IMG/VR virus record: IMGVR_UViG_3300030107_005087
Location: 1 to 47,143 of that record
Reading direction: 5' to 3' (one strand)
Length of the DNA: 47,143 nucleotides
Source of the DNA: a virus
Part shown: piece after piece, positions 20,687-27,733 of the stretch
Layout: every line of letters begins with the position of its first letter
Position numbering within the stretch: position 1 is the stretch's first letter
Notes under the pieces: model-generated
Database searches by the model: none
What the model saw: the letters and a program-made list of their open reading frames with translations, nothing else
What the model was told of the DNA's origin: nothing
Program-made: the position numbers and the translations under genes

Positions 20687-20779
20687 AGTGTCCTCCTCTA
20701 TGAGTCATGTCCATGGATTGCCCATGGATCGTGCCCTGCCCAGTCTCGCTCTGGGAGCCGGTCGTTAACCGGTCAGGGC
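20682..20779 (-). promoter_or_regulatory. Repeated leader RNA element, copy 2
   Basis: Outer stem GCCCTG/CAGGGC, arm 1 CCGGT-TAACG-ACCGG, arm 2 CCCAG with loop AGCGAGA (the most divergent loop, still 7 nt), linker ACGA, hairpin TCCATGG-GCAAT-CCATGGA, start hairpin CTCATAG/CTATGAG (7 bp) around AGGAGG. A further 6-bp inverted repeat CGGATC/GATCCG lies just upstream (20782-20810). Confidence 0.8.
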
Positions 20780-24235: not shown

Positions 24236-24322
24236 GGATCCTCCTCCATTGTTGCCTAGGGCTAGTCCCTAGATCGTGGACTGGGGAGTCACGAGCTCCC
24301 CTGCCGATCTTATCGGTAGTCC
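24234..24322 (-). promoter_or_regulatory. Repeated leader RNA element, copy 10
   Basis: Outer stem GGACT/AGTCC, arm 1 CCGAT-AAG-ATCGG, arm 2 GGGGAG around loop CTCGTGA, linker ACGA, hairpin TCTAGGG-ACTAG-CCCTAGG, start hairpin ATGG/CCAT (one outer pair lost). Its 5' part overlaps the last 13 bases of the gene at 24310. Confidence 0.8.
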
Positions 24323-24471
24323 TGATCACCAAAGTGATCACGGTTCTTGAACAAGCTCCAGCGATCCTGAAGCTTCGTCAAATTACTTACTCCGTACCGG
24401 TTTTCCCAGCCTAGGGCTATCCACCCTAGGTTGAGGCCAATCAGTACATACAATGTGATTGTGATTGCCAT
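24310..24471 (-). CDS. Small membrane protein, first gene of the early operon
   Basis: The 53-residue frame starts with ATG at 24471 behind AGGAGG and ends with TAA inside element copy 10. Residues about 3-21 (ITITLYVLIGLNLGWIALG) form one membrane segment; the rest is polar and basic (WENRYGVSNLTKLQDRWSLF). It is the first gene after the ribozyme-like fold. The start codon lies in a 5-bp CATGC/GCATG hairpin like those of its neighbours, which supports translation. Function unknown. Confidence 0.6.
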   Translation of the reverse strand: MAITITLYVLIGLNLGWIALGWENRYGVSNLTKLQDRWSLFKNRDHFGDQDYR

Positions 24472-24487
24472 GCTGTCCTCCTGCATG
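24469..24487 (-). promoter_or_regulatory. Start-codon hairpin (SD in loop) without three-way junction
   Basis: CATGC/GCATG pairs around AGGAGGACA, so the ribosome site is looped out and the ATG is in the stem, exactly as in the ten full elements. Here it directly follows the ribozyme-like fold. Confidence 0.65.
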
Positions 24488-24543
24488 TGAGTTTCTTGAG
24501 CCCCAGAGTGGGGCCCTCATCAGTGTGTTAATTCACAGACTCA
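24488..24543 (-). ncRNA. Hammerhead-ribozyme-like fold (type III layout)
   Basis: Minus strand in order: TGAGT then C (GTC cleavage triplet), stem I TGTG-AATTAA-CACA, the core CTGATGA, stem II GGGCCCC-ACTCT-GGGGCTC, then AA, GAA and ACTCA, which pairs with TGAGT as stem III. All three helices, both conserved core strands and the GUC site are in the right order. The flaw is two extra A residues between stem II and the GAA core strand, which could weaken or alter cleavage. A cut would fall after the C at 24538, separating upstream RNA from the operon mRNA. Stem II alone could also pair in a competing way. Confidence 0.55.
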
Positions 24544-25134
24544 TTGAGACAAGGAGGAGCGTCGGCACACAGTACCGAAACTGAGGTGAGGAAAGCCTCC
24601 ACTGTCATCAGTCACCAGCTGGATAATTGGCTGGTCTCAATTCTGCTTTGATCTGGCGATCATACTCCGAGGCGGTGACACTGAATATGTTTCGGATACC
24701 TACTCGCCTCGTCCCTGTGATGTCTTGGATGGGCTGGTTTAGCATTACTGCCAAGTGCCTCTAGATCCGAAGATCGCCTTTGCCCAACATCTCAGGGAGT
24801 CAACAGCTTTCGCTCACTCTCCTGCACCGGCTACTTCCCAGATCTGAAAGACCAAGGTTTTGCCAGCTACTCCAGTGTCCTCCGTGTGTCCCACGGCTGA
24901 AGCAATTCCCCAATCCTTGAACTTTCGCCCTTGGTATTAATTCCTGCTCCTGTCGCTGACCGCCTTGCCTTACCTCAGCAGTCTCCAGAAGCCCTTGGGC
25001 TACTCGTCCGATGTTCTCGGATCAAGTTTGTCAAGATCACCGCCCCTTGGCGCTTGAGGGAACCGGTACTGAACCCTTGGTGCTTGACCTCGGAGCTCAG
25101 GGACCTATCTGCGGTGTGAAATCCGATATGAGAT
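24544..25134 (-). ncRNA. Candidate large structured non-coding RNA (about 590 nt)
   Basis: No convincing gene lies here on either strand, but the minus strand is dense in hairpins: ACCAGC/GCTGGT (24614-24635), CGAGGCG/CGCCTCG (24668-24711), GATC-TTCG-GATC (24764-24775, a C(UUCG)G loop), CAGG-GAGT arm with an AGC-GAAA-GCT tip (24793-24824, GNRA loop), CCGTG/CACGG (24882-24896). The GNRA and UUCG loops read correctly only on the minus strand. A promoter-like site lies just upstream and the ribozyme-like fold just downstream. Size, phage setting and ornate folding recall GOLLD or ROOL RNAs; identity was not tested. Confidence 0.5.
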
Positions 25135-25162
25135 ACCTTAACGCATATCCGTCTTTTTTCAA
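25135..25162 (-). promoter_or_regulatory. Candidate minus-strand promoter for the ncRNA/early operon
   Basis: On the minus strand TTGAAA (25162-25157) and TAAGGT (25140-25135) are 16 bases apart, a sigma-70-like pair with an actinobacterial TAnnnT -10. Start would be near 25128, where the hairpin-rich region begins. The plus strand here could also form a terminator (GATATG/CATATC then six T at 25154-25159). Confidence 0.35.
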
Positions 25163-25322
25163 CGTTTTTGTTGGGATTTTTTCAAACAACTCTCTGACCA
25201 GCACAAACACAGGCTCTTGTCACAGCGAAATCAAGGCACATTGAGCACAAACATTGAAACACGACCCCGACCTAGGTCCCCAGCAACACCCCCTTAGCCA
25301 GACAAATACTTGAGCTCTCAGG

Positions 25323-25394
25323 ACCGGATGGATCGGATCGGATTTGTCCGGTACTGGTTCCGCTGGGAGCCGGATCGGATCGGATCGGGGGGGA
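25323..25394 (+). repeat. GGATC pentamer repeats with G-run
   Basis: GGATC is repeated head-to-tail near 25329-25343 and at 25372-25388, and the second cluster runs into seven G (25387-25393), followed by AGGGTGG. ACCGGA (25323-25328) and TCCGGT (25347-25352) make a 6-bp stem around the first cluster. A second G-rich stretch lies at 25436-25447. These may be iterons, a terminase recognition tract or G-quadruplex-prone DNA. Confidence 0.6.
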
Positions 25395-25554
25395 GGGTGG
25401 ACGGTTCAGGATCAATGATCTGGATCTGGGTTCATGGGGTAGGGGGGTCCATAAGATTCGGTTCGGAACATCATAGGAAACCCTTCACAGGATGTGGGTG
25501 ACAAACTGACATGAGTCAAGATCCAGTAATTCCACTGTCATTTTATGTCTAGCT

Positions 25555-25573
25555 ACCAAAACTTCGTTTTGGT
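25555..25573. other. 8-bp hairpin ACCAAAAC/GTTTTGGT
   Basis: A perfect 8-bp stem with a 3-base loop TTC (or 7 bp with CTTCG). No T-run follows directly; a T7 run occurs about 27 bases later (25600). It might be a bidirectional terminator or a protein-binding site. Confidence 0.45.
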
Positions 25574-25621
25574 GGACCTGGTACCGTACCGTTCCGTTCG
25601 TTTTTTTACATAGTACTGATA

Positions 25622-25647
25622 CCGGTTAGGGGATCAAACCGGCTTTT
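25622..25647 (+). terminator. Weak terminator-like hairpin
   Basis: CCGGTT and AACCGG (6 bp) enclose a 9-base loop and are followed by CTTTT. The T-run is short, so termination would be weak. It lies in front of the terminase leader. Confidence 0.3.
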
Positions 25648-25686
25648 GTCACAATGACGGATGTGTCTGAGCATGCTACTCACGGA

Positions 25687-25760
25687 AGCGCCTTCGGTAG
25701 GGTTCCACCCTAGTCCTATACAGAAGCTCTGCTTCTACCGGCGTATTTCGCTCCGGCGCT
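25687..25760 (+). ncRNA. Candidate multi-branch leader structure before terminase
   Basis: AGCGCC (25687-25692) pairs with GGCGCT (25755-25760) and encloses hairpins TAGGGT-TCC-ACCCTA (25698-25712) and AGAAGC-TCT-GCTTCT (25722-25736), plus a weak GCG-TATTT-CGC. The 74-nt size and branch count look like a cloverleaf, but there is no 5-bp T-arm with a TTCRA loop, so it is not a normal tRNA. It may regulate the terminase operon or act in packaging. Confidence 0.35.
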
Positions 25761-25840
25761 AATCCCCCGATTTCACAAGGTTCTCAGATTGTAAGGTTAT
25801 TCTATACCATACGCCCACGCTGTGTCCACAGTTAGGGTAA

Positions 25841-25846
25841 TATAAT
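25841..25846 (+). promoter_or_regulatory. TATAAT box three bases before terminase start
   Basis: A perfect -10 hexamer lies so close to the ATG at 25850 that a normal start point (about 25853) would fall inside the gene. No -35 is clear. It could be a leaderless-type or chance site; another promoter further upstream may serve the gene. Confidence 0.25.
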
Positions 25847-25849
25847 GAC

Positions 25850-27733
25850 ATGAATAAAAAGTACGAAAAATGGTCTAAAGCACGACGTTTTGAAGCTGCA
25901 GTTGCTAAGGTACTAGATGAGGGCTGGACTCAGACAGAGGCAGCCGAAATTTTCGGCGTTTCACGCCAACATCTAAACAAAAAGGTAAAGGAAGCTAGAC
26001 ATGAACAAAGTGAACGAGTTGAGTCCATTAAACAGGAGGCCATTAAAGCCGGTCCGCTTGACAAACAAGAAAGAAGGGTCGGGACTTTCACCGAGTTTTG
26101 CGATACTTATTTTCAAAACTGGATATGTCCAGACTGTGGCGTTCATCACGAAACTCCGGGATTCCATCAAGACATGGCTGAGGCGATTACGGGAGATTAT
26201 CGCAGGGTTGTAATTAACTGCCCACCATACCATTCTAAATCTACACTTGTTACGGTATGGCACACTGTATACGACATTTGCCGTAACCCTAACCTAAGAA
26301 CCCTACTGGTATCCAAGTCCTTGCCCTTTGCAAGGACGTTCATGCACAGCATCACCGAGATGCTGACAAACCCCGAATTATATGGGGATGGGCCTAATCT
26401 TATTGATGATTGGGGTCCTTTTAAGCCTGAGGGCCAGTCAACTTGGTCTTCTGAGCAGATTTACGTTTCTAATCGTACTGGTGCTGAGAAAGACCCGACT
26501 GTTGCTGTTTTGGGTGTTGGTCAGCAAATATATGGTCGTCGTGCCGATGTTATTAAATTTGACGACGTTGCTACGCTAGACAATATGAGAAACCCTGACA
26601 GGGTGTCTGCTATGCTTGAGTGGTTTGACAAAGAAGCTTTGTCTCGTATTGGGCGCTCTGGTAAAGCCATTTGGATTGGAACTCGTGTCCAACCCGGTGA
26701 TATTTATTCTACGCTGGCCATGAGACAAAATTACAAGGTTTTGAAGTACCCATGTATTCATGATGAAACTACAGAGCGTACTTTGTGGCCTGAGCACTTT
26801 CCTTATGAGCAAGCGCTTATTCACAAGAACGAAATGAGGCCTGCCGACTTTCAGCTGATTTATCAGCAGGTTGACATTCCGGGTGCAGGTGCTTCGTTTA
26901 CTGAAGAGATGATTGATGCCTCTAAAGACACTAGTCGTGTAGCAGGACACTATGACACCAGTTGGCGTTTGATAGCTGGCCTTGACCCTGCAGGCGGCAA
27001 TAAGGGATCTGGGTTTACAGCTTTTACTTTGTTAGGCGTTGACCTTGCTACTCAGAAACGGTATTTGATTGATTCTGTTGCCGTTAAGCAAATGAAAGCC
27101 CCTCAAATGAAACAACAGATTTTGGAGTGGACTGACAGGTATCCCATTTATGAATGGCGTGTAGAGTCTAATGGTGTCCAATCTCAAATCATTCAATATG
27201 ATGTTGAGCTTGTGCAGGAGCTGGCCAAGAGAGGCGTTCGTGTAGTGCCCCACCAGACACATGGCAACAAGTGGGATCCACAGTTTGGTGTGGAGTCTAT
27301 GGCCCCTTTGATGGAGACTGGTTTGTTTTCTATGCCTTGGGGTAATCAGCCTACAACGGCAGTGTTTCAGCCTATGATTGATGAGCTTATTGCGTTCCCT
27401 ATGGGAACTGTATCTGACAGGGTTATGTCGTTGTGGTTTGCTGACTTGGGTGTTCGTGATTTAGTAAAGCGAGCTCATTTGCCTATGTTCCATGAAAGGA
27501 TGCATGTCCCTAATCGCATTAAGCGCAAGCGACGTGTGGTAGACTTTCACAATCGTGAAGTAAGAGGTATTAGATTGCAGGATCAACGACCGGGGCATAT
27601 GTCTCGTGCGGCCAGTGGTTATAGGCGGCAAACTGTTGGTAATGCTATGGATCATAGTGCTGTTGAAGAATACGAAATAGAGAATGGTCCGCAACCGATG
27701 AACATTGACCCACAAATATGGAGCGAAGATTGA
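25850..27733 (+). CDS. terL: Terminase large subunit with N-terminal HTH
   Basis: The 627-residue packaging motor has an N-terminal HTH (WTQTEAAEIFGVSRQHLNKKVKEA, about 26-49), probably DNA-recognition that usually sits in the small subunit, since no separate small terminase is seen. The ATPase has a Walker A-like PPYHSKSTL (about 124-132) and Walker B-like VIKFDDVA (about 233-240). The RNase H-like nuclease follows, with LDPAGGNKGSG near 378 and DSVAVKQ near 405. TGA at 27731 sits at the edge of a 7-bp GACAAAA/TTTTGTC hairpin. It opens the late rightward operon. Confidence 0.9.
   Translation: MNKKYEKWSKARRFEAAVAKVLDEGWTQTEAAEIFGVSRQHLNKKVKEARHEQSERVESIKQEAIKAGPLDKQERRVGTFTEFCDTYFQNWICPDCGVHHETPGFHQDMAEAITGDYRRVVINCPPYHSKSTLVTVWHTVYDICRNPNLRTLLVSKSLPFARTFMHSITEMLTNPELYGDGPNLIDDWGPFKPEGQSTWSSEQIYVSNRTGAEKDPTVAVLGVGQQIYGRRADVIKFDDVATLDNMRNPDRVSAMLEWFDKEALSRIGRSGKAIWIGTRVQPGDIYSTLAMRQNYKVLKYPCIHDETTERTLWPEHFPYEQALIHKNEMRPADFQLIYQQVDIPGAGASFTEEMIDASKDTSRVAGHYDTSWRLIAGLDPAGGNKGSGFTAFTLLGVDLATQKRYLIDSVAVKQMKAPQMKQQILEWTDRYPIYEWRVESNGVQSQIIQYDVELVQELAKRGVRVVPHQTHGNKWDPQFGVESMAPLMETGLFSMPWGNQPTTAVFQPMIDELIAFPMGTVSDRVMSLWFADLGVRDLVKRAHLPMFHERMHVPNRIKRKRRVVDFHNREVRGIRLQDQRPGHMSRAASGYRRQTVGNAMDHSAVEEYEIENGPQPMNIDPQIWSED

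Follow-up and report, generated by a model that had tools for sequence, protein, structure and literature searches.

Gene-free locus flanked by terminase and leftward genes

The window, an IMG/VR virus record of 47,143 bases, carries a terminase large subunit gene on the plus strand (25850–27733), and divergent from it a series of leftward, minus-strand genes starts at about 24471; between them lies the stretch described here, which we call the leader and whose parts are listed in Table 1. The closest relatives of the terminase were IMG/VR contigs. No DNA similar to the window was found among 50,697 named phage records, in which the best matches to the terminase protein showed only 26–30% identity, and a DNA search of named phages with the window region and three related leaders gave no match. 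A homologous stretch at the same locus was present in L003, L004 (near-identical to L007), L005, and L041, which together with the window constitute group A; pattern scans of IMG/VR for more members returned only contigs already known, or L041. A genome scan for the host produced a single match, in a Bacteroidetes MAG contig, and was rejected as a host assignment, the ribozyme model scoring only 18.5 bits there (E 0.015).

Table 1. Positions in the window of the leader, its parts, and neighboring features
Feature	Position	Strand	Basis or remark
Structured non-coding leader, ~590 nt	24538–25128	minus	5' end putative, from promoter-like site; 3' end from predicted hammerhead cleavage
Helix H1, GUCAAG/CUUGAC and inner CACC/GGUG	25030–25088	minus	Two-sided changes in 5/10 pairs among relatives
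Core: H2 (CCGUG hairpin on its stem) and H3 (GCUGGC/GCCGGU)	24807–24907	minus	Comparative pairing
Optional domain 1	24922–25027	minus	In window, L004, L007, L041; short hairpin instead in L003, L005
Optional domain 2, long closing stem, tip GAUC-UUCG-GAUC	24707–24806	minus	In window, L004, L007, L041 (tip swapped); missing from L003, L005
Helix H5, ACCAGC/GCUGGU	24614–24635	minus	Comparative pairing; AUCGGA/UCCGGU in L004
H6, terminal hairpin of the leader, CGGUAC/GUGCCG	24563–24577	minus	Comparative pairing; UGCGA/UCGCA in L004
Anti-Shine-Dalgarno CUCCUCC	24553–24559	minus	Leader side of cleavage site; predicted pairing with Shine-Dalgarno
Type III hammerhead, AA between stem II and GAAA	24487–24543	minus	Covariance models; C17 = 24538
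Shine-Dalgarno AGGAGGA	24477–24483	minus	Predicted to be masked by leader before cleavage
First small leftward gene, 53 aa	24310–24471	minus	Different gene in L003, L005, L041
Weak promoter-like site TTGAAA-16-TAAGGT	25135–25162	minus	Just upstream of leader; read from sequence
Strongest minus-strand promoter-like site, TGGACA-18-TAGAAT	25799–25828	minus	10/12 consensus matches; adjoins terminase start; putative function
Three-way-junction elements	ends near 24278, 23837, 23307, 22982, 22593, 22275, 21983, 21170, 20733, 20028	minus	

The first-pass annotation, made from the DNA alone, had described 24544–25134 as gene-free and had named a conserved protein frame as an observation that would speak against an RNA. 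No minus-strand ORF of at least 60 amino acids was found in this stretch, and the only overlapping frames noted were two short plus-strand ORFs (24931–25119 and 25011–25244). All six frames of the leader contained 2–12 stops per frame in each of the five homologues; the protein-coding reading was rejected, and no conserved frame came to light.

The same annotation had placed a promoter-like site at the 5' end. There is a weak one, and its aligned counterparts in relatives are stronger (TTGACA-17-TAAGGT in L041 and TTGACA-17-TAATCT in L004), but a consensus promoter scan called nothing at 25162–25135. The sole match of the scan was the minus-strand site at 25828–25799, conserved across group A, and where the transcript begins is accordingly uncertain. 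Judged from its sequence, the site at 25828–25799 is a possible alternative start; if real, it would give an RNA of approximately 1.25 kb. Beside the terminase gene, two DNA blocks (25441–25511 and 25560–25850) are conserved in relatives, the first of them across the wider family, and may be a packaging or origin site. As a single RNA sequence, 25630–25790 folded no better than its shuffles (z −0.42). Short repeats of the GGATCGGATCGG type occupy 25325–25385, in the poorly conserved gap separating the conserved DNA block from the leader.

Conserved pairing in the leader

Folded as a single sequence, the minus strand scored z −1.74 against dinucleotide shuffles, 5 of 100 of which folded as well, and the plus strand was no better than its shuffles (z +0.34). 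The single-sequence evidence for a structured RNA is borderline, and the comparative evidence carries the case. The tetraloops occur in the minus-strand sense as the first-pass annotation had described, with C(UUCG)G at the tip of optional domain 2 in addition to GAAA loops.

Only four distinct homologues carry this type of leader, and the helices counted were picked by hand from them; in nine such helices, 203 of 205 cells paired, and both partners had changed in 21 of 41 pairs. When the helices of a 31-pair subset were slid, pairing fell from 99% to 25–45% and the number of two-sided pairs from 15 to 1–3, with the minor flaw that helix H2b was located at a wrong place in these slid controls. 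Helix H3 was paired in 24 of 24 cells in four sequences, with changes on both sides relative to the commonest pair in three of its six pairs, and merely 12–62% of the cells paired when its partner was slid. All cells of helix H5 paired, one pair with a two-sided change. Blocks of sequence are conserved across group A, while two domains of ~100 nt come and go between phages. Compensatory base changes, the general mark of a structured RNA, are thus present, and the conserved pairing among related phages on which the annotation had staked its proposal was recovered from the alignment. Comparison with these four distinct relatives decides the matter at the sequence level: the stretch behaves as a structured RNA on the minus strand.

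Against column shuffles, the aligned leader gave a fold z of −5.8 and its opposite strand −3.3. This test alone is supportive and not specific, because an upstream stretch outside the leader also scored about −3.2. The difference between strands bears on whether the conserved pairing belongs to a DNA element (a cos site, a pac site, or a replication origin) and not to an RNA. The stretch adjoins the terminase gene, and the region upstream of it, 25441–25850, is conserved across relatives, as would suit such an element; however, the alignment folds better as the RNA strand than as its complement, the stretch is closed by a ribozyme of the same sense, and other groups of phages keep the slot though their leaders do not match. 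We regard a DNA element as highly improbable.

Variant hammerhead and the leaders that precede it

The ribozyme-like fold that had been noticed at the 3' end was identified by covariance models as a variant of the type III hammerhead. RF00008 aligned over its full model length at 24486–24545 with 25.3 bits, below its gathering score of 48.5. The core consists of CUGAUGA and GAAA, with stem III UGAGU/ACUCA, stem I UGUG/CACA, and stem II GGGCCCC/GGGGCUC, and with AA before the GAAA. The window copy shares with type III hammerheads of RF00008 the core, the order of the stems, and the cleavage-site cytidine: stem III is open, stems I and II are hairpins, and CUGANGA, GAAA, and C17 are all present. 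It differs by two additional, conserved adenines that follow stem II and precede GAAA and, in several relatives, by a Shine-Dalgarno sequence inside stem III. Insertions within the hammerhead core are able to impair cleavage (PMC3088659), and the two extra adenines are carried by the window ribozyme.

A model of this variant was built from 11 of the dozens of IMG/VR contigs in which it occurred, none of the 11 from group A, and its training set showed covariation in all three stems. It matched the window copy at 24487–24543 with 73 bits (E = 4e-19). Five phage records of 40–59 kb had one copy apiece, and a sixth, of 21 kb, had one strong and one weak copy; two further records of the terminase family, which may be fragments, gave none. 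At about 45 IMG/VR loci, the AA-variant hammerhead had mostly AAUUAA as loop I and scored below the threshold of RF00008.

Among terminase relatives, a hammerhead was located on the minus strand approximately 1.0–1.6 kb upstream of the terminase start, ahead of a leftward gene, so that its place is conserved family-wide. The core was the AA variant in some of them, canonical in L015, L020, L022, and L023, and CUGAAGA in L109, L126, and L128. In pelagiphage-like contigs, which have a different terminase, leaders of about 300–400 nt ended in the same ribozyme variant. One helix of these leaders covaried strongly in an alignment (A7) that includes a shortened copy of L080 as one row and gives class-level support only. 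Two other leader alignments also outperformed their shuffles in folding, although for one of the two the opposite strand did so equally or more strongly. The Pelagibacter phages HTVC027P, HTVC023P, 023Pt_psg01, and DSL-LC04, whose terminases share 53–59% identity with the terminase of a pelagiphage-like contig, gave no match to the ribozyme model.

A covariance model of the group A core, searched against 35 sources, gave convincing scores only for group A sequences, and the idea of one core common to all leaders was rejected. The other leaders are therefore read as different RNAs sharing one slot, but the model is small (five sequences), so the leaders may still be distantly homologous.

Other RNA elements accompany leftward genes. 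Ten three-way-junction elements precede such genes on the minus strand of the window, each with two hairpins on a closing stem, CACGAU, usually another hairpin, and then a Shine-Dalgarno sequence. Their consensus showed two-sided changes in 14 of 16 pairs, and the copy at 20733–20779 matched the Rfam DUF2693-FD RNA (RF02926) with E 0.001, below the gathering score. On the minus strand of L010, L011, L015, L020, L021, L023, and L035, a series of Rfam Hammerhead_II matches lies ahead of leftward genes, a place that the three-way-junction elements take in the window. This series and the three-way-junction elements may be interchangeable, and, if so, the junction element would be a candidate RNA-processing signal. 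Short Rfam tmRNA matches of 102 and 81 nt, covering the model ends, were found at L023:790–891 (minus) and L146:2892–2972 (plus), respectively.

Relation to known RNAs and proposed role

When 4227 Rfam models, presumably including those of GOLLD, ROOL, OLE, HEARO, and raiA, were run over 24240–25860 with E up to 5, only the hammerhead matched. A search of the whole window gave no match to any of those five at gathering score, so the annotation's suggestion that the stretch might belong to a known family found no similarity to rest on. A place in, or at some distance from, one of the known classes of large phage RNA, such as GOLLD or ROOL, would suit the similar size, the phage origin, and the elaborate predicted fold; GOLLD and ROOL are phage-encoded, about 600–800 nt or more, elaborately folded, and of unknown function (PMC12286853, a work on three large ornate RNAs, two of which come from phages). 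GOLLD and ROOL are commonly near tRNA islands (PMC12286853). In contrast, the leader ends in a hammerhead and heads a leftward operon beside the terminase gene, and neither a tRNA nor a tmRNA gene was found in the whole window, so that its location differs from the GOLLD/ROOL type proposed for it. Together with the failure of any Rfam family except the hammerhead to reach E 5, this leaves membership of such a class, or distant kinship with it, scarcely plausible. Abundant, stable RNA and a homo-oligomeric cage are further characteristics of GOLLD and ROOL.

At many loci, the Shine-Dalgarno sequence 3' of the ribozyme was predicted to pair with a complement that belongs to the leader and precedes the cut; at several of them, this pairing is stem III itself (CCUCCUCGU/ACGAGGAGG). 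From these features we infer transcription, cleavage, release of the Shine-Dalgarno sequence, its timing, and a role in trans as follows. A leftward, probably early, operon would be transcribed with this RNA of ~590 nt as its opening segment. The type III hammerhead would cut the transcript after 24538, freeing a leader that terminates in a 2',3'-cyclic phosphate and leaving an mRNA that starts with a 5'-OH. The anti-Shine-Dalgarno would depart with the leader and unmask the downstream Shine-Dalgarno sequence, so that the next gene could probably be translated, and the released leader would then most likely have an independent function as a folded RNA. Group A phages share the leader and ribozyme yet differ in the first gene downstream, and therefore a function that belongs to the leader, or to the operon as a whole, is favored over a switch for a single gene.

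The leader could instead be purely cis-acting, as a put-like antitermination element or a sensor through which the ribozyme, and with it translation of the leftward operon, is controlled, with the cleaved leader as waste. Its position between the promoter-like sites and the first leftward gene suits this explanation, as do the anti-Shine-Dalgarno on the leader side, by which cleavage and translation look coupled, and the fact that no terminator-like site was detected from the terminase gene to the leftward genes. However, for a leader switch, 590 nt with optional domains of ~100 nt is a large size, the gene that comes first downstream varies among relatives, and the core model gives no match to leaders elsewhere in the family. 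We consider a purely cis-acting leader a serious but rather unlikely alternative. The large ornate non-coding RNA of the first-pass annotation therefore holds as to its size, structure, minus strand, and ribozyme end, and its stand-alone status shares the field with the cis-acting explanation. On balance, we favor a new family in which a structured non-coding RNA, first in a leftward operon, is cut off by a hammerhead that unmasks a Shine-Dalgarno sequence, the released RNA most likely working alone; this is probably, though not securely, the correct reading.

Hammerheads that flank genes in prophages have been described, and processing into gene- or operon-length mRNAs was proposed for them (Perreault et al. 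2011; PMC3088659). The present ribozymes resemble them in appearing to segment phage transcripts and differ in that a single conserved copy lies at the end of a large structured leader, where masking of the Shine-Dalgarno sequence is predicted. A literature search, mostly without subscription papers, found no account of a large hammerhead-released leader. A broader proposal, which we hold tentatively and at somewhat less than even confidence, is that one slot beside the terminase gene, in marine phages with this type of terminase as well as in pelagiphage-like ones, is kept for mutually unrelated large structured leaders, each self-cleaved by one hammerhead variant that unmasks translation of the leftward genes, as a general and undescribed class. 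If the favored reading is true, the families of large phage non-coding RNAs, at present very few, would increase by one, and phage hammerheads would gain a concrete job, forming the 3' end of a big RNA and serving as a translation switch for the operon behind it.
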